From: Pandoraea anhela
Lineage (GTDB): Bacteria > Pseudomonadota > Gammaproteobacteria > Burkholderiales > Burkholderiaceae
NCBI RefSeq assembly: GCF_902459655.1
Contig: NZ_CABPSB010000015.1
Location: 1 to 64,000, forward strand
Reading direction: 5' to 3'
DNA: 64,000 nt
The notes beneath the pieces are model-generated. The model worked only from the letters and a program-made list of their open reading frames with translations. It had not been told where the DNA came from and made no database searches. How positions within the stretch are numbered: the first letter of the stretch is position 1; each line of letters begins with the position of its first letter. Position numbers and translations under genes: made by a program. This document shows positions 1 through 12,831 of the stretch, piece after piece.

Positions 1-118
1 AACGGAACAACGACCGCGAAATTCCCACCAGCCCGCAAGCCCGGGTGACACCCATCGCGCGCTCGGTCATCAACGTTTGGACCGCTTCGCGTTTGGCTTG
101 CGGGCTTGCTACTTTCGG
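1..118 (-). CDS. IS3-family transposase OrfB, N-terminal part (partial, runs off the left edge)
   Basis: In the frame -1 to orfA the DNA encodes a typical OrfB beginning, with QAKREAVQTLMTERAMGVTR followed by ACGLVGISRSLFR, the region before the DDE integrase core. It overlaps the orfA end at a CCGAAAG sequence, as expected if an OrfAB fusion transposase is made by -1 ribosomal frameshifting. The catalytic domain is outside the window, so activity cannot be judged. Confidence 0.7.
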
Positions 119-369
119 GCAAGCAGGTCCTTCAGCGCTGCGTTGTCCAGCATCGAATCGGCCAGCAATCGCTTCAGCCGGCCATTCTCCTGCTCAAGCT
201 CCTTAAGACGCTGCGCATCCGACACGGTCATCCCGCCGAATTTGGCTTTCCAGTTGTAGTAGGTCGCTTCCGAGATTCCGTACTTACGGCACAACTCGGC
301 CGGCTTGAGACCTGCCTCGCCTTCCTTCAACACGCCAATGATTTGCTCTTCACTGAATCGCTTCTTCAC
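109..369 (-). CDS. IS3-family transposase OrfA (helix-turn-helix subunit)
   Basis: This 86-residue protein starts MKKRFSEEQIIGVLKEGEAG. It has the HTH_Tnp_1 fold (about residues 4-50, with LCRKYGISEATYYNWKAKFGG as the recognition region) and a C-terminal leucine-rich coiled coil (residues 55-85). It binds the element's inverted repeats and is normally joined to OrfB by frameshifting. Full length for the family and apparently intact. A second, diverged relative lies at 13289-13552. Confidence 0.9.
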   Translation of the reverse strand: MKKRFSEEQIIGVLKEGEAGLKPAELCRKYGISEATYYNWKAKFGGMTVSDAQRLKELEQENGRLKRLLADSMLDNAALKDLLARK

Positions 370-396
370 TTCCGTTCCCCTTCGTTGGAACGGACT

Positions 397-1542
397 CTAC
401 ACCGTCTGCGGACTATTCAGGGGGAGCAGGTCACGCGAGGACACGAGTGCCGATTGCGTCGCGCCGGCATTCGCGATCAGCACGCCGTGACCGGACAGAT
501 TGATCGAACCGCCCGCGAGTATCGACGCACCGCTCAGCGTGGTTTGTCCTGTCGACCGCCACGACAGATTGTTCGCGACGTTGATCTTGCTCGCGGGCGC
601 GAGCGTCACGTCGCCTGCAGACGTCAGCGAGAAATCGCCGGCATTCGCCATCATGGCGCCGGCATGGCGTACGCCCGCCCCGAGGTCGGTCGTCAGAAGC
701 TGGATACGGCCCGACGTAATGCTGCCGGTCGGTTCCACGTCGAGCGCAATGGCGTTGGGATTCGCTTGCTGGGTGTTGGCAAGCGTGACCCAATCGTTAT
801 TGTTGTCGTCGGGCGAGAAGCTCGTGTTGAGCGAGGCCTTGCTGCTACCGGCGATCACGCGCACGTAAGCCGTGGGGGACGAGAAGTCATTGCCGATGGG
901 CGCACTGACTTTGACGGTCTTGGCGATGAGTTCCAGTCCGATGAGCGTGCCGGCAAGGCCGCCGCCCGTGACTTCGATGGTGCCTTGCCCGGTGTTGAGC
1001 ACGACATTGCGTTGGTAGAGGCCCGGGGCGACGAGCACGTCGCTGAACGACACCTGCCCGGTGCTCAGCGCGACGTGTCCCGTGTTGACGAACGACCCGC
1101 CGTTGACGGTAATGCCGTTAGGGTTCGCGAGGACGACGTTCGCACGCGGGCCGGCCACAGCGATCTGCCCCTGGATCAGGCTCGGCGACGTGCCCGTCAC
1201 TTCGTTGACGATGGTCCGGGCGTTGACGCCCGTGTTGCCCAGCGTGGCGCCGGCCCGATCGACGTTGAAGCTCGTATAGGTATTGTGCGAAACGCCGTAG
1301 ACCGGAGGCGCGATGGCGACGTTCTGGCGTCCATCGGGACCGACCGTGACGGAGGTGGCTGTGCCGCCGTCCGGCACAATGCCGGCGGCGTGACATTGCG
1401 CGGCCACGGCGAGCCATGCCGCCAGGCCGAGCATGGATACGCTCAAACACGTCTGAAACCGCCGAATCCCCGAACTGCATTTGGTGTGCCCGCCAATCCC
1501 GCCGGCCAACGGCGAGACTTCGCGCGTCGATTGCCAAGGCAT
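397..1542 (-). CDS. FhaB-like two-partner-secretion exoprotein, N-terminal fragment truncated by an IS element
   Basis: The frame encodes 381 residues. An N-terminal hydrophobic segment ends AAQCHA near residue 52 (signal peptide), followed by a TPS (haemagglutination activity) domain of about 250 residues that includes the hallmark ANPNGITVNGG near residue 140. Such domains target large beta-helical adhesins or toxins to a TpsB outer-membrane pore. Full-length relatives exceed 1000 residues; here the gene stops shortly after entering the IS, and the last 11 or so residues (DLLPLNSPQTV) are IS-encoded. A weak AAAGA lies before the ATG. No tpsB gene is in the window. Probably non-functional as an adhesin. 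Confidence 0.85.
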   Translation of the reverse strand: MPWQSTREVSPLAGGIGGHTKCSSGIRRFQTCLSVSMLGLAAWLAVAAQCHAAGIVPDGGTATSVTVGPDGRQNVAIAPPVYGVSHNTYTSFNVDRAGATLGNTGVNARTIVNEVTGTSPSLIQGQIAVAGPRANVVLANPNGITVNGGSFVNTGHVALSTGQVSFSDVLVAPGLYQRNVVLNTGQGTIEVTGGGLAGTLIGLELIAKTVKVSAPIGNDFSSPTAYVRVIAGSSKASLNTSFSPDDNNNDWVTLANTQQANPNAIALDVEPTGSITSGRIQLLTTDLGAGVRHAGAMMANAGDFSLTSAGDVTLAPASKINVANNLSWRSTGQTTLSGASILAGGSINLSGHGVLIANAGATQSALVSSRDLLPLNSPQTV

Positions 1543-2211
1543 CTGATCTTTCGTCTTTTAGTTGTTTTACCGCTCGCAACATCCGAAGGTCGTCACGAAT
1601 GGCGACTTCTCGCCACCCCGTCAACGTTCCCCGAACGGCACATCGCGCGCCGGCCATCGTGTCGTGCCAGCTTTGCGCAAGGTGCCGCGCCCCTCGGATT
1701 CCTAGCTGATGAGAACCAGCCCAGACAAAGCATTACGGAAACGAAATCACAGTTCTTTAGGGTCCCGACGTGATTTTTTTGAGATTTACTCGCGCTCCGT
1801 TGTTTTTAATCGTTTTCGGACATCGATAGCGCAGATGACTTCGATTATCGAAATATCAATACTACGCATGATTACGTAGACCATTGATTTTTTGATGTTT
1901 TCATGCGCCACCAACGAAATATCAGGCATCCATATAATTTTCGCGACATTGGCGATCCCACGTCACGTCGCTTTACTCCATCGATTGATCTCATCGATTG
2001 ATCCCATCGATTAAACGCTTTGGATTTAGATGCTTAGGAGCACGGCAGCTTCTCCATTTTTCACGCTGACCGGCTTTCGATCGACGGCGCCCCCCCGTAA
2101 AGAGAAAAGCCCTGCATCGCTGCGGTCGATGGGACTACGCCCCGCGGCCTATCGAAACGCGTGATGGGGTGTCCGGTATGCCCCTGACCCTCAAGAATTC
2201 CGGATGGCGGT
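1543..2211. other. Intergenic region, AT-richer than its surroundings, no gene recognised
   Basis: This 670-base stretch separates the truncated exoprotein gene from the bufferin operon. Positions 1750-2040 are clearly richer in A and T than the flanking genes. It contains the tandem repeat at 1979-2012 and two copies of CGAAATATCA (1849-1858 and 1915-1924). It probably holds the exoprotein promoter. No open frame with coding character was seen. Confidence 0.5.
1979..2012. repeat. Tandem 13-base repeat, about 2.6 copies (CATCGATTGATCY)
   Basis: CATCGATTGATCT (1979-1991) is followed directly by CATCGATTGATCC (1992-2004) and then by CATCGATT (2005-2012). The perfect 13-base phasing puts copies on nearly one helical face every 13 bases. 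It could be a regulator-binding array or a simple slippage product. Nothing in the sequence decides which. Confidence 0.6.
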
Positions 2212-2237
2212 GTAACCAGCAGGCAGTCTCCGGCGAA
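2212..2237 (+). promoter_or_regulatory. ECF sigma-F-type promoter of the bufferin operon (GTAACC-N16-CGAA)
   Basis: GTAACC at 2212-2217 and CGAA at 2234-2237 are exactly 16 bases apart, the arrangement known for sigma-F promoters in Caulobacter. The same exact pair precedes the sigma gene and the nrsF gene. The -10 continues as CGAATTAGC, shared with the sigma gene promoter. The start of transcription would fall around 2243-2246. Confidence 0.8.
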
Positions 2238-2242
2238 TTAGC

Positions 2243-2267
2243 AGACGTATCCACAGGGGATACGTCT
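2243..2267 (+). promoter_or_regulatory. Perfect 10-bp inverted repeat in the bufA leader
   Basis: AGACGTATCC (2243-2252) and GGATACGTCT (2258-2267) are exact inverted repeats around the five-base loop ACAGG. Because the predicted transcript begins at about 2243-2246, the mRNA would start with or very near this hairpin, 16 bases before the GGAG ribosome-binding site. It may protect the 5' end of an abundant small-peptide mRNA. An operator is the alternative. Confidence 0.55.
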
Positions 2268-2293
2268 TGCTTAATTTGCATCGGAGAACTTTC

Positions 2294-2605
2294 ATGTCGA
2301 CAAAAATTGCGACGACTTCCGCATTGATCGCCAGCGCCGTCGCTGGTCTTCTCGCCACCGCAGCGCACGCCGGCCCGCTCACCCAAGCCGAAGTGAATGC
2401 CGCCGTCTCGGCCCATAAGGAGAAGTGCTACGGCGTCGCCCTCAAGGGCCAGAACGACTGCGCCGCCGGCCCGGGGACCACCTGTCAGGGAACGTCGACC
2501 GCCGACTACCAGGGCAACGCATGGAAGTTCGTTCAGGGCGGCACGTGCACCAACATTCAGGTGCCGGGCGGCGGACACGGCTCGCTTACGCCGATCAAGT
2601 CCTAA
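2294..2605 (+). CDS. bufA: Bufferin precursor peptide BufA (DUF2282 family)
   Basis: A 103-residue exported peptide. The signal sequence runs to about AHA at residue 26; the mature part has four cysteines at 45, 56, 64 and 85 in the contexts EKCYG, NDCAAG, TTCQG and GTCTN, with the family block [10 protein letters not shown]. Members are ribosomally made and modified on cysteines by the DUF692 enzyme with its DUF2063 partner, and sequester copper in the periplasm. The ATG at 2294 was preferred over one at 2267 because GGAG lies just upstream of it and the signal peptide then starts normally ([10 protein letters not shown]). First gene of bufABC-doxX, preceded by a sigma-F-type promoter. Confidence 0.92.
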
Positions 2606-2636
2606 ACCGCAGTTCGTGTTGGAAACGGGGGCGAAG

Positions 2637-3563
2637 ATGACTGACCTCATCAGCAGCACGGAGGCCGACGCTTGTGTCCCCGCCTTCGCGTCGGGCATCA
2701 CCCATGCCCGCAGACCGGTAGGAACGAGCTTCAAGCACGAACACCTTCAGGCTATTCTTGCCGACGGGCTGCGCGACGGCTTCTTTGAAGTTCATGCCGA
2801 AAACTACATGGGCGACGGCGGTCCGCCACACAGAGCGCTGGCCGCGATTCGGCAGGAGTACCCGCTGTCGATCCACGGCGTCGGCATGTCCATCGGTGGC
2901 CCCGACGCGCTCGATAACGGGCATCTGACGCGTTTTCGGGAACTGGTGGCGCGCTACGAGCCGGAACTGGTCTCGGAACATCTGGCATGGTCGTCGCATG
3001 CCGGCACGTTCTATAACGACCTACTCCCCCTGCCTTATACGGCCGCCACGCTGGCGCACGTTTGCGCCCATATCGATCAGGTGCAGGAAGCGATCAGGCG
3101 GCCGCTGCTGCTGGAAAATCCGGCGACATACGTCGCATTCACGACATCCACGATGACCGAGCTGGAGTTCATTCGCGAGATAGTGAAGCGCACCGGGTGC
3201 GGCTTGTTGCTCGACGTCAACAACGTCATGGTGTCCACGACGAATCACGGCGCTTCGGCGATCCAGTATCTCGACGCGTTTCCCGTGGAACACGTCTGCG
3301 AAATCCATCTCGCAGGACACAATGTACAGACCGACGATTCACACAGACCGTTGCTCATCGATAGTCACGACCGGGCGGTCTCTCCCGACGTGTGGACACT
3401 GTTTCACCGTGTGATCGCAAGGGCCGGCGTCATCCCCACGCTGATCGAGTGGGACAGCGATTTGCCGGACTGGCCGACATTGCGAGCGCAGGCGCTCACC
3501 GCTCGCCATATCATCGAGACGCTGTCGCAAACACAACCGGAGATCGGCAGACATGTCGGTTAA
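2637..3563 (+). CDS. bufB: Bufferin maturation enzyme BufB (DUF692, multinuclear non-haem iron oxidase)
   Basis: A 308-residue TIM-barrel enzyme of the MNIO family. Metal-ligand regions are visible: the [10 protein letters not shown] segment near residue 50, [11 protein letters not shown] near residue 85, [14 protein letters not shown] near residue 195, CEIHLAGH and LIEWDSD near the end. Family members oxidise cysteines of the precursor (to thiooxazole in a studied bufferin) with iron and oxygen in the cytoplasm before export. The open frame extends upstream over bufA, but MTDLISS at 2637 follows the bufA stop and fits the family. Its last 11 bases overlap bufC. Confidence 0.93.
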
Positions 3564-4359
3564 GTCGCTGCCACCTACGCAAGCCGAAGCCACGCGCCGG
3601 TTCGCATCAGGGTTGCTTAACCCGGCGCATCCGCCGCCCGACGATCTCGCAGGTACGGAGGATTCGGCAGTCAACAAGCGCTATGCGGTGTATCGCAACA
3701 ATGTCACGGTCAGTCTGATCGACGCTCTGGCATCGATTTACCCCGCAGTCCTGCGCATCACGGGGACCGACTTCTTCCGTGCCATGGCGCGCTTTCACAT
3801 TCGTGCCACGCCACCGGTCTCGCCGTTGCTCTTCGCGTACGGGCGCGACTTCCCCGCGTTTATCGCGTCGTACGAGTACGCCCGGGAACTCCCATGGCTG
3901 GCAGACGTTGCCCGCATCGAGCGCGCATGGCTCGACGCTTACCACGCGGCGGACGCCCCCACGCTGTCCATCGAGTCCCTCGCGGCGCTGGACGCCGACA
4001 GACTCACGTCAGTGCGCTTCATTGCGCATCCCGCCGCACAGGTGATCCGCTCCTCCTATCCGGCGGTCACGCTGTTCGCGATGCACCGCGAAGCGCAAAG
4101 TGCCATTTCATCGGTGGGCGACGACGCGCAAGACGCGCTCATCACTCGTCCGGATCACGACGTCATCGTGTCGCATCTTCCCGCAGGAGGAGCGGAATTT
4201 CTGACGGCCCTCATCGGCGGCGCGACATTGAGCGACGCCGTGGACACGGCCATGAACGCCTGCGCGTCTTTCGACGTCACCGCCAACATCGACGGCATGA
4301 TGTCGGCGGGGGTGTTCTGCGCCATTCACTCACGCAATTCACTGGACTCACGAGACTAA
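3553..4359 (+). CDS. bufC: BufC, DUF2063 partner protein of the MNIO enzyme
   Basis: A 268-residue protein whose N-terminal half (about residues 10-105) has the DUF2063 pattern, including [20 protein letters not shown] and YPAVLRITG. The C-terminal half is more variable. In this family it acts as the recognition partner that presents the precursor peptide to the DUF692 enzyme. Its ATG lies inside the bufB 3' end (11-base overlap), so translation is probably coupled and a bufB-bufC complex is expected. Confidence 0.9.
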
Positions 4360-4363
4360 CGTC

Positions 4364-4870
4364 ATGTCAGACACCCCCGTCATTCGCGCGCCCGCCAGCA
4401 AGCTGATCGCACGCGCGGCATGCCGCGCCACCGCACTCGCCCAATGGCTGGCGCAACCGTGGCTTGCTCAACTCGCGCTGCGCCTGGCGCTCGCCGTGCC
4501 GTTCTGGCGCTCGGGCATCCTCAAATGGCAAGGCTTCCTTCAACTGAGCGACACGGCGATCGATCTGTTTTCCGAGGAGTTCATGCTGCATTTGCCCGGG
4601 GGGCCGTATGCACTGCCCGCCCCCCATGTCCTGGCATTCCTCTCGGCATGCGGCGAGGTCATTTTCCCGGTGCTGCTCGTGGCGGGACTCGGCACCCGAT
4701 TCGCGGCGCTGGGATTGCTTGCCATGACAGCCGTGATCGAACTGACGGTCCCTGATGGCTGGCCCGTGCATCTGACGTGGGCTGCGATGGCGCTCGCCGT
4801 TGCCGCCTGGGGAGCAGGGCCGCTGTCGATCGACCATTTGCTTGGCGACCGGCATAGTCGTCACCCTTGA
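4364..4870 (+). CDS. DoxX-family membrane protein of the bufferin operon
   Basis: A 168-residue inner-membrane protein with about four hydrophobic segments (roughly residues 40-60, 80-105, 108-130 and 135-155) and the DoxX pattern ALAVPFWRSGILKWQGF. It starts four bases after the bufC stop and is clearly co-transcribed. DoxX proteins often accompany DUF692/DUF2063 genes; a redox or membrane-quinone role is suspected but unproven. Confidence 0.85.
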   Translation: MSDTPVIRAPASKLIARAACRATALAQWLAQPWLAQLALRLALAVPFWRSGILKWQGFLQLSDTAIDLFSEEFMLHLPGGPYALPAPHVLAFLSACGEVIFPVLLVAGLGTRFAALGLLAMTAVIELTVPDGWPVHLTWAAMALAVAAWGAGPLSIDHLLGDRHSRHP

Positions 4871-4910
4871 ATCGCCATCGCGCGGGGGCGTGCGGTTGAG
4901 GGGGAGCGGA

Positions 4911-4943
4911 GGAGCGAAGTGGCGCAGTAGCGGAGTAGCAGAG
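4911..4943. repeat. Low-complexity purine-rich stretch with imperfect GCGGAGNAGC units
   Basis: In the gap between doxX and the convergent sigma gene the plus strand repeats GCGGAGGAGC, GCGCAGTAGC and GCGGAGTAGC in a row. It looks like slippage-type low complexity. No terminator hairpin was seen in this gap. Confidence 0.4.
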
Positions 4944-5089
4944 TTGAGGCATCGAGATCAGGTCGAACGCCTTGGCTCCGCAACAGCCGCGCTCTTGCCG
5001 CTGCCCCCGGGTGACACAACCGGCGCCTCGTCATGCAGCATGGCGCCATCGCTGCCGACACGACACCGCACGCAAAAGGTCGTCGACGC

Positions 5090-5635
5090 TCATATCGCCT
5101 GCCGCACGCGTGCAGCCAGTGCTTTCAACCCGCGATGAATGCTCACCTTCACGGCCGATTCGGTCAATCCCGTCAGGCGCGCCGCCTCGGCGACCGACAG
5201 CCCGTGCAACTTCACGTGCAGAATGGAAAGCCGTTGCTTGTCGGGCAGTTGATCCAGCAACTTGCCGATATCGCGCCGTGCTTCGGCAGGCACGTCGTCG
5301 ACCTCGGAAAAAATGTCCTCGTGATCGTCCAGCGGTTCGTTGAGCGACGCCCGTCTCGCGTGATTGCGGAAAAAGTCCATCAGCTTGTACCGGGCAATCG
5401 CATGCACCCAGGCAGTCAGCGGGTCATCGGGTCGGAAGGTATGCCGTGCATTGTGGACAGCCAGGAGTGTTTCCTGAACGAGATCCTCCGCATCCGCACG
5501 AAAATCGGGGATACGCCTGCGAAGATAACCTCGCAAGTGCCGAGTGAGTTCTACGAGAAATGCACGATAGTCGGCCGAATTACCTGCCAGGCCACTGATA
5601 AATAGTGCCTTCAGACGCGGCTCTGCGGAATACAA
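5090..5635 (-). CDS. ECF RNA polymerase sigma factor, sigma-F-like
   Basis: A 181-residue sigma factor. Region 2 lies at about residues 25-90 (DAEDLVQETLLAVHNARHTF and WVHAIARYKLMDFFR) and region 4 at about 120-175 (GLSVAEAARLTGLTESAVKV, the helix-turn-helix). No extra domains. The start is a TTG at 5635, chosen because GGAG stands 8 bases before it and no ATG is near. It probably directs its own promoter (5853-5878), the divergent nrsF gene and bufA, all with the same -35/-10 pair. The 5' leader would be about 210 bases. Confidence 0.9.
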   Translation of the reverse strand: MYSAEPRLKALFISGLAGNSADYRAFLVELTRHLRGYLRRRIPDFRADAEDLVQETLLAVHNARHTFRPDDPLTAWVHAIARYKLMDFFRNHARRASLNEPLDDHEDIFSEVDDVPAEARRDIGKLLDQLPDKQRLSILHVKLHGLSVAEAARLTGLTESAVKVSIHRGLKALAARVRQAI

Positions 5636-5852
5636 GGTCCTGTCTCCAGAATCACTGCGTAACGCAACGCCTGTCGCCAGACCACGGGTTGCGCACCAGC
5701 GCTCGACATCACTTACGCCAATGCCGTATGTGAGCCCGATAGGCTCATGTCGGCGCAGCGAACACCCTCTGCCGTTACGAGACGTTTCAACGAGCCGACC
5801 CGTCCCGTATCGGCAGCTTCCAAGCGCTTTTATTTCACGCCCGTTGAGCTAA

Positions 5853-5878
5853 TTCGTCGGCAGGCGGACGCAGGTTAC
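5853..5878 (-). promoter_or_regulatory. ECF sigma-F-type promoter of the sigma factor gene (GTAACC-N16-CGAA)
   Basis: On the minus strand GTAACC (5878-5873) and CGAA (5856-5853) are separated by exactly 16 bases, and the -10 continues CGAATTAGC as in the bufA promoter. It points at the sigma gene, implying positive autoregulation. Confidence 0.75.
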
Positions 5879-5917
5879 ACACGAGATAGGGGCGGCATCG
5901 ATCAAACGCGTTCGGCT

Positions 5918-5943
5918 GTAACCACCGTCACGCTCGGGTCGAA
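5918..5943 (+). promoter_or_regulatory. ECF sigma-F-type promoter of nrsF (GTAACC-N16-CGAA)
   Basis: GTAACC (5918-5923) and CGAA (5940-5943) with an exact 16-base spacer lie 46 bases before the nrsF start. The -35 elements of this and the divergent sigma promoter are only 39 bases apart, back to back. Confidence 0.75.
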
Positions 5944-5989
5944 ATACAGGAGATATCTGCTAAGAATCCGGCGACGGGGCCGACGACGC

Positions 5990-6631
5990 ATGGAAACGCG
6001 TGAACTGATCAACCGGTTGTGTCGACATCCGGCGCCCATGGCGCATCAGGGGCCATCTTCGAGAATGCACCATGCGCTGATCATGGGTCTCGCGGGAAGC
6101 ACGCTGGTGCTCATTGCGCTGTATAACTTTCACAGCAACATGCCCGATCTGATACTGACGAAGATGTTCTGGATCAGGCTGGCATTTCCGCTCGTTACGA
6201 TCATCACGGCGATGACGTTGACTCAGCGGCTTGCGCGCCCCGGCGCCTCGACGAAATACGCCGGACTTACCGTGGCCTTGCCCATCATGACGATGCTGGC
6301 GGCCGCATGCGTCATTTTGCTCACAGCGCCGAAGGGTTATCGACTGCAATTGGTGCTTGGGAGGCGTTGGCACGTCGCAAGCCTCGACATCGTCTTGCTG
6401 TCGGTTCCGCCACTCATTGCCTGCATCGCCACCATCAAGGGCCTCGCCCCTACGCGCCTGACGTTGGCGGGCGCGAGCGCTGGATTGCTCGCCGGCGCGC
6501 AGGGCGCGCTCGTGTATTCCCTCTTTTGCTCGAATCTCGACGTTCCATTTTGGGGCGTCTGGTACGCCATTTCCCTGCTGACGACGGTCGGCATCGGTGC
6601 CGCGATTGGTCCCCGGCTGCTTCGTTGGTAA
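5990..6631 (+). CDS. NrsF-like anti-sigma factor (DUF1109)
   Basis: A 213-residue membrane protein with six predicted helices and the DUF1109 start METRELINRL and end RLLRW. Members hold the cognate ECF sigma at the membrane and release it on metal or oxidative stress. Of the two cysteines I recall as sensors in Caulobacter (131 and 181), only the second has a clear counterpart (Cys180 in YSLFCSN); the first position reads WHVASLD, without Cys, although Cys145 is nearby. The longer open frame starting at 5747 was rejected because METREL is the family start. Divergent from the sigma gene rather than in one operon. Confidence 0.85.
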   Translation: METRELINRLCRHPAPMAHQGPSSRMHHALIMGLAGSTLVLIALYNFHSNMPDLILTKMFWIRLAFPLVTIITAMTLTQRLARPGASTKYAGLTVALPIMTMLAAACVILLTAPKGYRLQLVLGRRWHVASLDIVLLSVPPLIACIATIKGLAPTRLTLAGASAGLLAGAQGALVYSLFCSNLDVPFWGVWYAISLLTTVGIGAAIGPRLLRW

Positions 6632-6651
6632 CGCGCGATCCACACGAACGA

Positions 6652-8232
6652 ATGAACCTCGAAACATTGCTCCAATGCTCGATGTTGCGTGAAGCCCGCC
6701 TCGTTGCGGGGCATCAGGCGCAACGTTGCGACATCCAATCCGTGTGCATCGCGGAATCGATTTCACCGGTGCCGCCCGAGCGGTGCGCGCAGCTGCTTTT
6801 GACAACCGGCGGCGATTGGCCGCGCGACGAAGCCGGCGCCCGTCAGGTGATTCGCGCGCTCGCGGCCAGTGGCGTTGCGGCCGTGGTGTTATCCACGACG
6901 CCCCATCTGCCGAGCTTCCCCCCTTCGTCCATCCGTGAAGCTCAAGCAAGCGCCCTGCCGTTGCTCGAAATTAGCGGCGACATTGCGTTCTATCGTCTCG
7001 CGCATGATGTCCACGCACATCTCGTCCACAAGCGCATCGACTTGATGCAGCGGTGCGATGAAATCAATCGAACGCTGACGATCACGGCGTTGTCGGCAAA
7101 CTCTCTGGACGATCTGGCGCAAGCGCTGGGCCTCTGTCTCGGGCGCACCGTTCGATTCTTGAGCGCGGACGGCACGGCAATGGGGACCTATCTCACGGCG
7201 GGCTATGCCCCCGCGCCCGCAATGCACAGAGGGGCCTATTTGCAATATCTACAGGATCATCGGGTCATCGAACGAATGAATGCCGAGATGGCCCCCGTCA
7301 TCGTCGAACGCTGCGACGCCGGCGACGCACCGCGACGCCTCGTCAGCGCAATGAGGATCGGCGGCGACATCGCGGGCTTCGCGATGATCGACGAGAATGC
7401 GACGCCTATCGGCCCGACGGAGATTCGCGCGATCGAGCACGCCAGCCTCATCGGGGCCTTGCATCTGTCCCACGCTCGCGCACTGCATCTCCAGGAGGAG
7501 CGACTGGGCTATTCGATGGTGGCCGCATTGCTGGAAGGAAAATTTGTCGAGACGCCGGCTGCACTCGAGCGTGCCCGAATGAGCGGATGGGACGCCCAGG
7601 CGCCCTACAGAATCTGCCTGATGCTGCTCGGCGAACCGCTGCCCCTGAGCCGCGAGGGCTTTTCGCGGCGAGAACAATGGGTCGAACGTTTGAGACGGTA
7701 TCTCGACGACATTGGCCAACCACCGCTCATCGTCGTCTCGCTAAATCAGATACGGTTTCTGCTCTCTCCCGGCGTAGCGCCGGCGTCACTATGGCGGCAA
7801 CTAGGTCATCGCACGAGTGCGCTCGCCGTCAGTCGGGAGCACGTGGGCATCGACGGAATGGCGAAAGGTGGCGAAGACGTGCAATCGCTTCTGCCCTCGC
7901 TAAAACCGGGAAAAATTCACTATTTCGAGCAAATCATGTTTCCACGCGCCTTGCTGGGCGACGCCAACGCACGTGCGCTGTTCATCGACAGTCAGTTAGG
8001 CCCCCTGCTTGCCGACAAGCGACAAAAGCCGCTTCTGGAGACATTACGCGCCCTCTGCGAGGAAGGATTTCAATGGGCCGCCACGGCACGACGACTCAAC
8101 GTGCATATCAGCACCGTGCATTATCGGGTCGAGCGAATCGAGGCCATGCTCGGCGTCGATTTCGATACACAGTCGAGCCGATTCGAGGTGCAGGTCGCCA
8201 TGGCGATGCTCGGGCTGACGGAGGACTCCTGA
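6652..8232 (+). CDS. PucR-family transcriptional regulator
   Basis: A 526-residue regulator. It has an N-terminal PucR-type sensory domain (about 1-125), a middle region, and a C-terminal helix-turn-helix (LLETLRALCEEGFQWAATAR followed by RLNVHISTVHYRVERIEAML, about 462-505), the usual PucR/CdaR-type end. PucR proteins control purine, allantoin or amino-acid use. The start MNLETLLQ lies 20 bases after nrsF, so read-through from the sigma-F promoter is possible. It converges on the glsA-glnA-amtB operon, a plausible target. Confidence 0.85.
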   Translation: MNLETLLQCSMLREARLVAGHQAQRCDIQSVCIAESISPVPPERCAQLLLTTGGDWPRDEAGARQVIRALAASGVAAVVLSTTPHLPSFPPSSIREAQASALPLLEISGDIAFYRLAHDVHAHLVHKRIDLMQRCDEINRTLTITALSANSLDDLAQALGLCLGRTVRFLSADGTAMGTYLTAGYAPAPAMHRGAYLQYLQDHRVIERMNAEMAPVIVERCDAGDAPRRLVSAMRIGGDIAGFAMIDENATPIGPTEIRAIEHASLIGALHLSHARALHLQEERLGYSMVAALLEGKFVETPAALERARMSGWDAQAPYRICLMLLGEPLPLSREGFSRREQWVERLRRYLDDIGQPPLIVVSLNQIRFLLSPGVAPASLWRQLGHRTSALAVSREHVGIDGMAKGGEDVQSLLPSLKPGKIHYFEQIMFPRALLGDANARALFIDSQLGPLLADKRQKPLLETLRALCEEGFQWAATARRLNVHISTVHYRVERIEAMLGVDFDTQSSRFEVQVAMAMLGLTEDS

Positions 8233-8253
8233 CGAGCATCGATCTCCTGAGCA

Positions 8254-8287
8254 AAAAAAGCCCCCCCGGTTCACACCGAGGGGGCCC
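8254..8287 (-). terminator. Rho-independent terminator of the amtB operon
   Basis: A GC-rich stem (GGCCCCCTCGGT with ACCGGGGGGGC on the minus strand, loop GTGA) is followed by seven T on the minus strand. It sits between the convergent pucR and amtB genes; the T run favours termination of amtB transcripts. Confidence 0.8.
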
Positions 8288-8298
8288 AAAAGCCCGAA

Positions 8299-9717
8299 TC
8301 ATTCCAGGCGTTCGCCGTGCAACGCCAGATCGAGCCCTTCATGCTCCTGCGACGGATTCACCCGCAATCCCAGCGTGGCGTCCACCGCCCACAGCAACAG
8401 GCCAGTCATCACCCCGCTGAAAATGAGCGTCGTCAACACGCCCTGCGCCTGAACGATCAGCGAGCCGCTGTTTCCACCGATGGCCGCTTTCGCGAAGACG
8501 CCGGTCAGCAAAGCACCGACGATGCCGCCCACCCCGTGTATCCCGAACGCGTCCAGCGAGTCGTCGTAGCCGAAGCGTACTTTCATATAGGCCACGCAGC
8601 CGTAGCACAGCGCGCCGCTGAGCAGACCGATCCAGATGGCGCCCACCGCGTCGACAAACCCTGCTGCCGGCGTGATCGCCACCAAACCGGCAACCGCGCC
8701 GGAGATCAATCCCAGCACTGTCGGCTTTCCCTTCACGCGCCATTCGGCCAACATCCACATGAGCGCTCCTGACGCCGCCGCCACTTGCGTGGTGAGCATG
8801 GCGAAACCGGCGCGCCCGTCAGCCGCAAGCGCCGATCCGGCATTGAACCCGAACCAGCCGACCCAGAGGAGCGCGGCGCCGATCATGGAGAATCCGAGGT
8901 TATGCGGCGCCATATCCTCCTGGCCATAACCGAGTCGCTTTCCGAGAACCAAGGCACACACCAGTCCTGCGATACCCGCATTGATATGCACCACCGTGCC
9001 GCCGGCAAAATCCAGAATGCCCTTGCCGGCCAACCACCCGGTCGGCTCCCAAACCATGTGTGCAATCGGCACATAGACCACCAGCGACCAGAGCCCGGAG
9101 AAGAGCAACATGGACGAGAACTTCATCCGGTCGGCAAACGCGCCGGTGATCAGCGCCGGCGTGATGATGGCAAACGTCATCTGGTACATGACATAGACAG
9201 CTTCCGGAATCGTGACGGCCAGATGACTGACCGTTAGCTGAGCGCCATCGCCATGGTTCTCGTACCCCATGCCGTGCAGAAACAGACGACTCGTCCCGCC
9301 GATGAAACCGTTCCCGGGTGTGAATGCCAGTGAATAACCCGCAACGACCCACAACACCGTGATCAGGCAGCAAATGGAAAAGCTCTGCATCATCATGGTC
9401 AGAACATTCTTCTTTCTCACCATGCCGCCGTAAAAGAGCGCGAGGCCGGGAATCGTCATCAACAGGACCAGTGCCGTAGACACCAGCATCCAGGCTGTGT
9501 CCCCCGCGTTGATCGTCGTCGACGCCACGACCATGGGCGCACTCGGCGCGGCCGGTGCCGGCTTTGCCGCAGGCGACGGGATCGATGCATCGGCGCCGGA
9601 CGCGACAGCGGTCGGCTGCACCGTCGCCGCACTTTGCTCTGCGGTTTGGGCGGTAGCCAGCGTGTGCCCCGTCAGCATCGAAAATCCGACAAATAGACAG
9701 AACAGCCACTTCTTCAT
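8299..9717 (-). CDS. amtB: Ammonium transporter AmtB
   Basis: A 472-residue channel protein with an N-terminal signal peptide (MKKWLFCLFVGFSMLTGHTL, cleaved near ATAQ), an Ala/Pro-rich linker and about 11 membrane helices. The twin pore histidines are in VVHINAGIAG and FGIHGVGG. AAGGA stands before the ATG. It conducts ammonium/ammonia and is usually controlled by GlnK; no glnK gene is adjacent, unlike the common glnK-amtB pair. It follows glnA after 95 bases and is probably the last gene of glsA-glnA-amtB. Confidence 0.95.
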   Translation of the reverse strand: MKKWLFCLFVGFSMLTGHTLATAQTAEQSAATVQPTAVASGADASIPSPAAKPAPAAPSAPMVVASTTINAGDTAWMLVSTALVLLMTIPGLALFYGGMVRKKNVLTMMMQSFSICCLITVLWVVAGYSLAFTPGNGFIGGTSRLFLHGMGYENHGDGAQLTVSHLAVTIPEAVYVMYQMTFAIITPALITGAFADRMKFSSMLLFSGLWSLVVYVPIAHMVWEPTGWLAGKGILDFAGGTVVHINAGIAGLVCALVLGKRLGYGQEDMAPHNLGFSMIGAALLWVGWFGFNAGSALAADGRAGFAMLTTQVAAASGALMWMLAEWRVKGKPTVLGLISGAVAGLVAITPAAGFVDAVGAIWIGLLSGALCYGCVAYMKVRFGYDDSLDAFGIHGVGGIVGALLTGVFAKAAIGGNSGSLIVQAQGVLTTLIFSGVMTGLLLWAVDATLGLRVNPSQEHEGLDLALHGERLE

Positions 9718-9812
9718 CAGAGAATTCCTTCGAGTTTTTGGACGTTATCGATACGCAAGCGCGAGCCGCGAGCGCGGCATTCACCCTGCTGGCGATGCCG
9801 GCCCGCTTGCGA

Positions 9813-11219
9813 TCAAAGGGAGTAGTACATCTCGAATTCGACAGGGTGAACCGCCTGACGATACCGATCGATCTCGCCTCGCTTCAGCTCGATATAGGCA
9901 TCGAGCATGCCGTCCGTGAACACGCCGGCTTTCGTCAGGAAGGCTCTGTCGGCGTCGAGCGCATCGAGTGCCTCGTCCAGCGACGCACATACCGACGGGA
10001 TTTTCGCTTCCTCGTCGGGCGACAAGTCGTAGAGATTTCTGTCGGCCGCCTCACCGGGGTGGATACGCTGCTCGACCCCATCGAGGCCCGCCATCATCAA
10101 GGCAGAGAAACACAGATAGGGGTTCGCCATCGCGTCAGGGAAGCGGGTCTCGATTCGACGCGCCTTCGGCTCGCTCGTGAAAGGAATGCGGATAGAGGCA
10201 GACCGGTTCTTTGCCGAATAGGCGAGTTTGACGGGTGCCTCGAAGTGCGGCACGAGCCGCTTGTACGAGTTGATCGACGGGTTCGTAATCGCGTTGAGCG
10301 CGCGTGCGTGACGAATGATCCCGCCGATGTAGAACAGCGCGAATTCCGATAACCCGGCGTAGCCGTTGCCCGCAAAAAGGTTAACGCCGTTCTTCCAGAT
10401 CGACTGATGGACATGCATGCCGGAGCCGTTGTCGCCCACCACGGGCTTGGGCATGAACGTCGCCGTCTTGCCGTAACGATGTGCGACGTTATGAACCACA
10501 TACTTCAGTCTTTGCGTCCAATCGGCGCGTCGCACCAGCGTCGCGAACTTCGTGCCGATTTCGTTTTGTCCCTGACCGGCGACTTCGTGGTGATGGACCT
10601 CGACGGGAATGCCCAATCGCTCCAGTGTGCGACTCATCTCCGAGCGCATGTCCTGATGGGTGTCGACAGGCGGCACGGGGAAATAGCCGCCTTTCACGCC
10701 CGGACGATGACCGCGATTGCCGCTGGGCAGTGTCAATCCGGAGGACCAGGGCGCCTCCTCCGAGTGAATGTCGAGCAGGCAGCCCGATGCATCGTGACTC
10801 CAGTTCACCGCGTCGAAAACAAAGAACTCGGGCTCCGGGCCGAAGTAGGCGGAATCGCCATGCCCCGAATCGCGCAAGAAGGCTTCTGCGCGCTTGGCGA
10901 TGGATCGGGGGTCTCGCTCATACCCTTTGCCGTCGGACGGTTCGATCACGTCGCAAGACATGACGAGGGTCGGCATCTGAAAGAACGGGTCGATGAATGC
11001 GCTGTCCGGATCCGGGCGCAGCAGCATGTCCGACGCCTCGATGCCTTTCCATCCGGCGATCGACGATCCGTCGAACGCGTGTCCTGCCGAGAACTTTTCC
11101 CGGTCGAACGCCGATACCGGAACGGTGACGTGCTGCTCCTTGCCGCGCGTATCGGTGAATCGGAAGTCGATAAATTTCACGTCGTCTTCTTCGATCTGAC
11201 GCATCACTTGCTCAATCAT
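9813..11219 (-). CDS. glnA: Glutamine synthetase, type I
   Basis: A 468-residue GSI that joins glutamate and ammonia with ATP. Visible are the N-terminal [12 protein letters not shown], the latch/ATP region GQNEIGTKF, the [10 protein letters not shown] loop, [13 protein letters not shown] and NRSASIRIP. The adenylylation tyrosine stands in NLYDLSPDE near residue 397, so GlnE control is expected. Start MIEQVMRQI at 11219 gives the family length and overlaps the glsA stop by 8 bases (translational coupling). This copy may be a second paralogue beside a housekeeping glnA elsewhere. Confidence 0.95.
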
Positions 11220-12831
11220 TTTGCTCAACACCTTTAAGTAGAGACACAATTTCCTGATGGTTCGCGCGCTCGGCGTCTTGCAGCGGCAAATTTCCCCATC
11301 GATCTTTCGCGTTCGCGTTCCCTCCGTTCTGGATGAGATAGCGAACGGACGCCACCTTGTTTTCGGAGGCTGCGATATGCATCGCTGTCCGTCCGTCGTA
11401 ATCTGCGGCATTGATGTCGGCGCCACACGCGATCAATCGCTCCATTTCGCGCAAGTCGCCCGCTGCCGCGGCCCAACAGAGATTGACGACGGCGGCATTT
11501 GCTTCGGATCGACTGCGGCGAGTGGGATTGATCTTTTGTGCGTTGATCCCGCCGACGATGTCGAAGTTGTGGAACGAGTATCTGGACGTGAGCCTTTTGC
11601 AGAACTCGATGCCGCGCACGCTGTTTCCCAGTTCGTCGAGGGGGGGAGACCAGATGCATAGCCCCATGACTTCCGGGATGACCACCATGACTCCGCCGCC
11701 GACGCCCGACTTCGCCGGCACGCCGATCAGGAAAGCAAACTCGCCGGAGAAGTCGTACATGCCGCACGAGTGCATCAGGGAAAGACAGTTCTTGACCGTC
11801 TCGCTCGAGAAGATTCGTTTGTCGGTCAGCGGGTTGACGCCACCGTTAGCGAGCGTTGCCGCCGCAACGGCCATCGAATCGCACGTCATCTCCACCGAGC
11901 AGCATTGGAAGTAGAAGTCCAGCGTGGCCTGAATATCGGTGTCTTTCGGCAGTGCCCCGTTCTCCCGGAGAAAGTAGGCGAGCGCGAAATTCCGGTCTGC
12001 GGTATCGCGCTCCGACAAGAACACGGTGTTGTTGAAGGAGACCGAGCCACCGGCGCTGAGATCGCGCCACTTGTCGAAGACGTAGGCGAACCGGGCGGAC
12101 GCCGAGCCCGAGTCGCGAATCAGTGAGCAGCTTGCGATGGCGCCGGCGTTGATCATCGGGTTGTGCGGCCGCCCCCGGTTATCGAGCGTAATCGCGTTGA
12201 ACGAATGCCCGCTCGGCTCTCGTCCGATGGTTTTGTGAAGCCGTTCGACGCCCACATCCTCGGACGCGAGACAATAGCTGATCGTCTTGGAGATCGACTG
12301 GATGCTGAAGAGCTCTCTGGCGTCGCCATACCGGGCGCGTTGGCCGTGCACGGTGCATAAACTCACGCCGAACTTGTCCGCGCTCACGCTTGCGAGTTCC
12401 GGAATGTAGGCGGCTACGCGTCCGCCCGACACCGCCGCCACTTGCCGAAAGATTTCGCCGATATCGTTCGTGAACCGATCCCATCCAGGAATCACGAAAT
12501 CGTCTTCGATCACTCGACGGAACAAGCGCGGATTCCGGGAAAAGAGTTGCACGAATTCTGCGGGCGTCATCTCGGCGGTTTCGTGATTCCTGAACGCCTC
12601 GTAGATGTCGCCGACGCGGGGATCGTCCTCAAGGATCCCCGCGCTGACCAGACGCTCCCTGAACCGCGCCACAGTAAGACGTGTCTCTCCGGGTGCAACC
12701 AAAAGACGGTAAAGCGCCATGGACTCGTCGTCCGCGCCACTTGGCTTGGTAACGTAATCGTGTTCCCTTGCGTCGAGTGCATCGCCTTCGATTGCCGCCT
12801 TGCGCACCTTCCCGCCAACTGCCTTAACCAT
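11212..12831 (-). CDS. glsA: Glutaminase of kidney type with C-terminal ankyrin repeats
   Basis: A 539-residue protein. It has an N-terminal helical region (1-115), a beta-lactamase-like glutaminase domain (about 118-425) with the Ser-x-x-Lys pair at 179-182 in [12 protein letters not shown], plus NPMINAGAI and [11 protein letters not shown], and two to three ankyrin repeats (about 450-535; [20 protein letters not shown]). It hydrolyses glutamine to glutamate and ammonia. The architecture is like animal GLS; many bacterial glutaminases are only about 300 residues. ATG at 12831 has AAAGGA at good spacing; an ATG at 12855 is possible but has a weaker site. First gene of glsA-glnA-amtB. Confidence 0.93.

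Follow-up and report, generated by a model that had tools for sequence, protein, structure and literature searches.

Sequence analysis of a 64,000-nucleotide stretch of the Pandoraea anhela genome, here referred to as the window, places predicted sigma-F-type promoters before a bufferin operon (bufABC-doxX), an ECF sigma factor gene and the gene for an NrsF-family membrane protein, and reveals a second sigma-nrsF1 operon in the same genome. The NrsF-family protein of the window, NrsF2, is doubtful as a standard sensor. Bufferins, modified peptides that chelate copper, were named as a family only recently, and little is understood of their membrane partners. The explanation that we favor, and hold to be somewhat probable, is that this is an accessory sigma-F-type bufferin operon accompanied by the second sigma-nrsF1 operon, that NrsF1 would control both sigma factors with NrsF2 not being the main sensor, and that the bufA leader would form a stem-loop.

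A predicted sigma-F-type bufferin operon

The operon begins with bufA (2294 to 2605, plus strand), which encodes a DUF2282 bufferin precursor (PF10048, 81.6 bits) with, as read by eye, the four cysteines after a Sec-like leader that characterize Buf1 precursors. It is followed on the same strand by bufB (2637 to 3563), whose product passes the equivalog cut-off for an MNIO maturase (NF050167, 371 against 310 bits; PF05114), by bufC (3553 to 4359) for the DUF2063 partner protein (PF09836) that accompanies the maturase in Buf1 clusters, and by doxX (4364 to 4870) for a DoxX-family membrane protein (PF07681). A modified, copper-binding peptide would be the predicted product of such a cluster. The locus is accessory, since of 32 genomes examined in the genus only 3 have an MNIO gene of any kind; the other two MNIO genes show 44 to 45% identity, and, for the insertion site, a pucR homologue (52 to 53%) was found in only 3 other genomes of the 32.

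The window contains three exact copies of the motif GTAACC-N16-CGAA, both strands counted; 100 dinucleotide shuffles gave a mean of 0.02 sites, and no shuffle had as many as 3. The sites lie at 2212 to 2237 (plus strand), 56 nt 5' of the bufA ATG; at 5853 to 5878 (minus strand), 217 nt 5' of the TTG start of the sigma factor gene; and at 5918 to 5943 (plus strand), 46 nt 5' of the nrsF2 ATG. All three are exact, as the preliminary description had claimed, and the sequence that it assigned to two of them, CGAATTAGC, is present at the bufA and sigma sites; its reading of the region as a bufferin operon with sigma-F-type promoters is likewise supported. The motif stands before the target genes, as in a sigma-F (ECF16) regulon, and we regard the sites as predicted promoters of this type.

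Conservation points the same way. When the 160 nt preceding bufA were searched in each of 40 close bufABC loci, an exact site was found 49 to 58 nt 5' of the ATG in 36 loci and a one-mismatch site in another; none was found in the remaining 3, one of which has an N15 spacer. Of the 24 loci that encode NrsF2, 23 have an exact bufA promoter and the remaining one differs from it by a single mismatch. The sister copy in genome G581 resembles the window in that an exact site also precedes the nrsF gene itself. The genome-wide search that had been proposed for defining the regulon returned 12 exact copies against 7 for a reversed control pattern, so that the motif by itself is unspecific and meaningful only when it precedes a gene, and we rejected motif counting on its own. 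Judged by eye from open reading frames, 5 of the 12 copies lie 5' of genes, namely, the three in the window and two beside a sigma-nrsF operon on contig C12; the other 7 lie elsewhere, 6 within long open reading frames and 1 overlapping the start of a gyrB-like gene.

The sigma factor gene of the window (5090 to 5635, minus strand) encodes an ECF protein with regions 2 and 4 (PF04542/PF08281), assigned to the sigma-F type by profile (NF009188, 303.8 bits; cut-off, 250) and tree. The operon on contig C12 encodes a second sigma factor and NrsF1, a two-cysteine protein, behind the same promoter. Identity between the two sigma factors is 81%, and by eye their region-4 helix sequences do not differ. 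Because of this second operon, the earlier proposal that the locus is an independent stress island has to be rejected.

A conserved element in the bufA leader

A stem or dyad of 10 bp lies in the bufA leader (2243 to 2267, plus strand; conserved core GTATCC-N5-GGATAC at 2247 to 2263). In 36 of 37 close promoters, that of the window included, a 6-bp stem of the form GUAYCC-N5-GGRUAC starts exactly 9 nt past the -10 box of bufA. We lean toward an RNA hairpin, on the basis of sequence comparisons, rather than a DNA operator. The regular expression by which the 36 rows were picked fixes most of the stem, so that "100% paired" is partly built in; this weakens pairing as proof of RNA and lowers the probability that we give both to the RNA reading and to the more novel reading of the locus discussed below. 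The free evidence is the fixed distance, a stem test run without the regular expression, and pair 4, the sole pair that the selection of rows did not constrain on either side. One-sided changes at pair 4 give U-G, seen in 4 of the 36 rows (L157, L166, L167, and L234, representing about three independent events); C-A does not occur.

That the element is instead an operator for a dimeric regulator is a serious possibility, if the less favored of the two. It is a symmetric 6-5-6 dyad whose distance from the -10 box is the same in 36 of 37 promoters, and most of the pairing evidence would fit a dyad as well as a stem, as double changes occur in only 1 of 6 pairs and shuffles reach this in 380 of 500 cases. 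However, an operator should tolerate C-A as much as U-G at pair 4, and 8 of 9 dyads in 8 genomes sit at bufA leaders, so that no wider regulon is visible in these genomes. Examination of 42 more distant bufA rows, Caulobacter itself not among them, did not reveal the stem, and an Rfam search of window positions 1 to 12000 gave two weak matches, both under the gathering score and off the leader.

NrsF2 lacks a cysteine of sigma-adjacent NrsF proteins

The nrsF2 gene (5990 to 6631, plus strand; ATG at 5990 by homology) encodes an NrsF/DUF1109 protein (PF06532, 186.8 bits) with six membrane segments in a hydropathy plot after merging of small gaps, the topology being taken from hydropathy and published predictions. 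Only one of the two conserved NrsF cysteines is present: codon 130 (6377 to 6379) is GCA (Ala) where sigma-adjacent NrsF proteins have the equivalent of Cys131, and codon 180 (6527 to 6529) is TGC (Cys), corresponding to Cys181 of Caulobacter NrsF. NrsF2 belongs to a clade of 24 copies in 23 genomes that is tied to bufABC-doxX; all 24 lack Cys130, the natural NrsF2 residues in its place being Thr or Ala, and 23 keep Cys180, whereas both cysteines are present in 119 of 119 sigma-adjacent NrsF proteins examined. His179 is replaced, as is Cys177, which is typical of NrsF1 in this family; the N-terminus is still NrsF-like (MKTxDL). In all 23 other clade members the annotation places the gene next behind doxX or bufC, in the same orientation and at a distance of 0 to 369 nt, with no sigma factor gene directly adjoining. 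The sensing role first ascribed to the NrsF protein of the window is thus doubtful on two counts, the missing cysteine and the position of its relatives. At least one further NrsF copy is present in all 23 genomes, with cysteine states checked in those copies whose sequence was fetched.

The gene is dispensable, being missing from 16 of 40 close buf loci, one of which (G754) retains a remnant. A single gain without any loss is unlikely given this remnant and the 7 changes required by Fitch parsimony on the midpoint-rooted BufB tree of the 40 loci. Linkage to a special bufA type was also rejected, as no BufA position separates the 25 nrsF2-bearing from the 16 nrsF2-free sequences at the thresholds used.

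Compared with NrsF1, the cytoplasmic segments of NrsF2 have higher relative rates of evolution (N-terminal segment, 1.28 against 0.67 to 1.03 in eight NrsF1 control sets) and two periplasmic loops lower ones (loops 1 and 3, 0.73 against 1.09 to 1.49). Shrinkage does not account for this shift, which persists in eight smaller NrsF1 sets and three NrsF2 subsets. One NrsF1 clade approaches the NrsF2 rates (N-terminus, 1.03; all periplasmic segments, 0.93), and loop 5, in which Cys180 is retained, is under relatively weaker constraint in NrsF2 than in NrsF1 (0.69 against 0.34).

Discussion

Under the favored explanation, the two-cysteine NrsF1 encoded on contig C12 would hold both of the similar sigma factors, and copper or an oxidant would release them; the freed factors would then switch on the bufferin operon and nrsF2, as well as a CxxCxxCC gene and the genes that encode the factors themselves. 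With no nrsF1 behind it, the sigma factor gene of the window could act as an amplifier, a step against which the lack of strong sigma-F autoregulation under metal stress in Caulobacter (PMC3511200) counts. NrsF2 would not be the main sensor, and the bufA transcript probably begins with the conserved stem-loop, which may stabilize or control it.

What NrsF2 does instead may be inferred from the loss of Cys131, the tie to the buf operon and the shifted rates: it would once have been an anti-sigma factor and would now act for the bufferin system from the periplasmic face of the membrane. The fuller version is tentative, namely, that a single recruitment brought NrsF2 into the bufferin operon, where it ceased to hold sigma and turned into a membrane protein that faces the periplasm and partners the copper-binding peptide system, while the conserved 5'-terminal stem-loop of the bufA mRNA adds post-transcriptional control as a second level. 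The NrsF-like N-terminus, the relaxed loop 5 and the dispensability of the gene would count against such repurposing. The loss of Cys131 can be set against Bradyrhizobium EcfF-OsrA, likewise an ECF16 sigma factor with a DUF1109/NrsF anti-sigma factor, for which the account reports tests of both cysteines: interaction with EcfF requires C129, and release requires C179 (PMC3420878). OsrA keeps both, unlike NrsF2, which lacks the one for EcfF interaction. In Caulobacter, NrsF C131S is leaky yet still inducible (PMC3511200), so that loss of Cys131 need not abolish sigma binding.

It is rather unlikely, if conceivable, that NrsF2 is a signal-blind feedback brake, which would be induced by sigma-F, recapture it and, unopenable by copper or oxidants, limit the response. 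The sigma-F-type promoters of the 24 NrsF2 loci, including the genes' own sites in the window and the G581 sister copy, the loss of His179 and Cys177 next to the sensor cysteine and the retained N-terminus would all suit a brake, but the lost cysteine is the one that OsrA needs for sigma interaction while the release cysteine is kept, the cytoplasmic segments evolve relatively faster than in NrsF1, and co-transcription of nrsF2 with bufA is an assumption. The proposal of the preliminary description, that the protein both senses the signal and acts as the usual cognate anti-sigma factor for the neighboring sigma factor, is improbable: despite its Pfam family and a divergent gene with its own site, it lacks Cys131, belongs to the buf-operon clade and not to the sigma-adjacent copies, reaches only 102.7 bits against the AntiSigF_NrsF equivalog cut-off of 300, and shares the genome with a two-cysteine NrsF1.

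The core of the locus is ordinary, as the promoter is published and sigma and NrsF genes have already been described in bufferin clusters. The Caulobacter sigF-nrsF regulon is described with an identical GTAACC-N16-CGAA promoter, an NrsF-family protein and a DUF2282-DUF692-DUF2063-DoxX operon, CC3254-3257 (PMC3511200), and sigF there is reported to be copper induced and required for copper tolerance (PMC8224329). Unlike P. anhela, which has a second sigma-nrsF1 operon and, in the window, divergent sigma and nrsF2 genes, the latter without Cys131, Caulobacter is described as having a single sigF-nrsF operon, whose NrsF carries both cysteines (PMC3511200). In Cupriavidus metallidurans, gigPABT, a bufferin-type operon induced by copper and gold, similarly adjoins genes for an ECF sigma factor and a predicted membrane anti-sigma factor, rpoQ-rsqA; there, however, gig is divergent from rpoQ-rsqA, no RpoQ promoter or RpoQ-dependent gig start was shown, and rpoQ deletion raised gig expression (PMC10304878), whereas in the window the sigma factor gene is convergent and nrsF2 has its own sigma-F-type site. 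The lack of an RpoQ-dependent start and the effect of the deletion count against the favored explanation. Sigma and NrsF genes are reported in some Buf1 clusters; a cysteine-depleted NrsF class and the leader stem were not found in the available sections of that account (PMC12452194), nor was either noticed in open-access literature titles or the starts of abstracts.

In summary, NrsF proteins that lack the OsrA-type sigma-holding cysteine constitute a natural set that could be used to separate sensing, sigma binding and other roles within this family. NrsF2 may point to an unrecognized membrane component of the bufferin system, and the bufA leader stem would provide a precise element on a stress-induced mRNA.

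Results

Three exact copies of the sigma-F-type site GTAACC-N16-CGAA, more than expected by chance within the window, were confirmed where the preliminary description had placed them, one each before bufA, the ECF sigma gene and nrsF2 (5990-6631, plus strand). The bufA ATG, the TTG of the sigma gene and the nrsF2 ATG (5990) lie 56, 217 and 46 nt downstream of the ends of their own sites, respectively. Profile matches identify a DUF2282 precursor, an MNIO maturase scoring above the BufB equivalog cut-off, a DUF2063 protein, DoxX, an ECF sigma factor and an NrsF-family protein. Upstream of the buf operon, inspection by eye shows an IS3-like transposase ORF (109-369, minus strand) next to a 381-amino-acid ORF (397-1542, minus strand) that is similar to the N-terminal portion of a filamentous haemagglutinin-type exoprotein. 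Also by eye, a 13-base unit, ATCGATTGATCYC, is repeated about two and a half times ahead of the bufA promoter (approximately 1980-2012, plus strand). Downstream lie a PucR-type regulator (6652-8232, plus strand; neighbours amt-like and glutamine-synthetase-like by eye), with homologues of 52-53% identity in 3 other genomes among the 32 of the genus, and weak, below-threshold Rfam matches to the Burkholderia sRNAs ncS54 (E 0.051) and anti-hemB (E 0.067) at 8253-8346 (minus strand).

The whole genome contains 12 exact sites, against 7 for the reversed control pattern. Judged by eye from ORFs, five are gene-upstream, namely, the three in the window and two on another contig (C12), which precede a CxxCxxCC-domain gene (PF03692) and a second sigma-nrsF operon; the other seven fall inside long ORFs or across the start of a gyrB-like gene. 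The CxxCxxCC gene (L055, 7145-7993) has its site 43 nt before the ATG, and similar-looking genes with such a site occur in L056, L062, L154, L164 and L171, the Pfam scan having covered the L055 gene alone. The second sigma factor shares 81% identity with that of the window, and the two group with the sigma factor of another genus member (support 96/88). The genome has one DUF2282 match; an MNIO match was found in 3 of 32 genus genomes, the other two at 44-45% identity. One further locus (L057, 6190-6581, genome G051) carries a second bufA immediately 3' of nrsF1, with its own site and leader dyad.

Across the seven nearest relatives, nrsF genes of the window type lie downstream of bufABC-doxX (in one, bufABC with no doxX match), no sigma gene directly adjoins them and, where seen, the sigma gene is in a separate sigma-nrsF1 operon. 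Among 398 family genomes, an even draw from a larger group, there were 24 copies in 23 genomes, window included, and the window alone has the sigma gene between doxX and nrsF2. No further copies were found in 399 order genomes, where the fetched matches retain both cysteines. We compared 162 distinct NrsF sequences from the family, order and phylum samples, fetched from part of the places listed. Both conserved cysteines (Caulobacter Cys131 and Cys181) are kept in 136, including all 119 sigma-adjacent proteins and 16 copies in other settings; one further sequence is a fragment. The Cys131 equivalent (Ala130 in the window) is absent from 25, comprising the 24 window-type proteins and a solitary G611 copy. 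The latter (L172, 11904-12542) lacks both cysteines and lies more than 400 nt from any sigma or buf gene. His179 and Cys177 are also replaced in the window type; Cys177 occurs in 96% of NrsF1 proteins from the family and 50% of all sigma-adjacent NrsF. The 24 proteins form one FastTree clade (support 1.0), NrsF2, whose sister, from G581, keeps both cysteines and has its own site, with a buf operon beside it on the opposite strand. Near the clade are tandem second NrsF genes adjoining another NrsF, with both cysteines (L064, L065, L173 and L122-L124), which are possible intermediates. A short NrsF match (42 bits) downstream of doxX in G754 (L225, 8368-8556) is probably a decayed nrsF2.

For 52 sigma-adjacent NrsF1 proteins of the family and, separately, for the 24 NrsF2 proteins, we estimated site rates over segments whose boundaries were placed by eye (hydropathy later agreed with six segments). 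Relative rates were 0.88 (NrsF1) and 1.28 (NrsF2) for the N-terminal cytoplasmic segment, 0.84 and 1.13 for all cytoplasmic segments (P = 0.0005) and 1.03 and 0.72 for all periplasmic segments (P = 0.002), the P values coming from site permutation, which ignores correlation of neighbouring sites. In eight smaller NrsF1 sets the values were 0.67-1.03 for the N terminus and 1.09-1.49 for loops 1 and 3, compared with 1.24-1.28 and 0.68-0.78 for NrsF2 and three subsets. Loop 5, which holds Cys180, shows the opposite trend (NrsF1, 0.34; NrsF2, 0.69).

The bufA promoter is exact in 36 of 40 close bufABC loci and has one mismatch in another. A stem, GTAYCC-N5-GGRTAC, starts exactly 9 nt past CGAA in 36 of these 37 promoters (one with an 8-nt loop, one with U-G at pair 2), L061 having a variant stem; in the window it extends to 10 bp (2243-2267). 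Of the three loci lacking a recognised promoter, L224 has no stem; by eye, one is present in L238, where it follows an N15 promoter, and in L237, in which no promoter was seen. When the GTAYCC-N5-GGRTAC expression is not used, stems of 6 bp or longer (G·U allowed) are possible in 37/37 leaders (200 mononucleotide shuffles: mean 3.6, maximum 9). A set of 42 other bufA rows, in which certain loci are repeated and certain stretches are truncated, showed no such stem downstream of the promoter; the four matches to the expression in this set fall on the promoter hexamer or a similar one. Of the 9 dyads located in eight genomes, 8 lie in bufA leaders, and the stray one is within chance, since the reversed pattern occurs at 8 places in the same genomes.

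Discussion

Most of the window regulon is of an already known kind. Published work describes GTAACC-N16-CGAA as the Caulobacter sigma-F promoter (PMC3511200), sigma and NrsF genes in some Buf1 clusters (PMC12452194) and, in Cupriavidus metallidurans, a copper- and gold-responsive gigPABT operon adjoining rpoQ-rsqA (PMC10304878). The last study showed no RpoQ-dependent gig start and reports increased gig expression upon rpoQ deletion.

According to PMC3420878, Bradyrhizobium OsrA C129S loses its two-hybrid interaction with EcfF and activity becomes constitutive, and C179S blocks release; PMC3511200 describes Caulobacter C131S and C181S single mutants as leaky yet inducible. By analogy, NrsF2 should hold sigma poorly on the first result and perhaps merely less tightly on the Caulobacter one. 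Together with the rate shift, these mutant results lead us to favour, with modest confidence, a periplasm-facing accessory role over that of a feedback brake. The window sigma factor may act as an amplifier; the same sources report autoregulation of Bradyrhizobium ecfF (PMC3420878) and no strong autoregulation of Caulobacter sigma-F under metal stress (PMC3511200).

The leader dyad could act as an RNA hairpin or as a DNA operator. In 32 distinct rows, selected with an expression that leaves little of the stem free, 12 cells are changed on both sides, and in none of 500 shuffles was the covariation score or the percentage of pairing as high. The expression leaves both positions of pair 4 unconstrained; among 36 rows this pair is U-A in 20, C-G in 12 and U-G in 4, with no other combination. 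Double changes are confined to one of six pairs, a number matched by 380/500 shuffles. Because row selection built in part of the pairing evidence, the RNA reading and the joint reading below carry less weight, and a DNA operator has a substantial, somewhat less than even chance of being correct. The joint reading, in which NrsF2 would be a repurposed, periplasm-facing buf partner and a 5' stem-loop would control bufA, is offered tentatively and is on balance doubtful. As variations on a known regulon, the leader stem and the NrsF2 class are both new within reach of the searches made.
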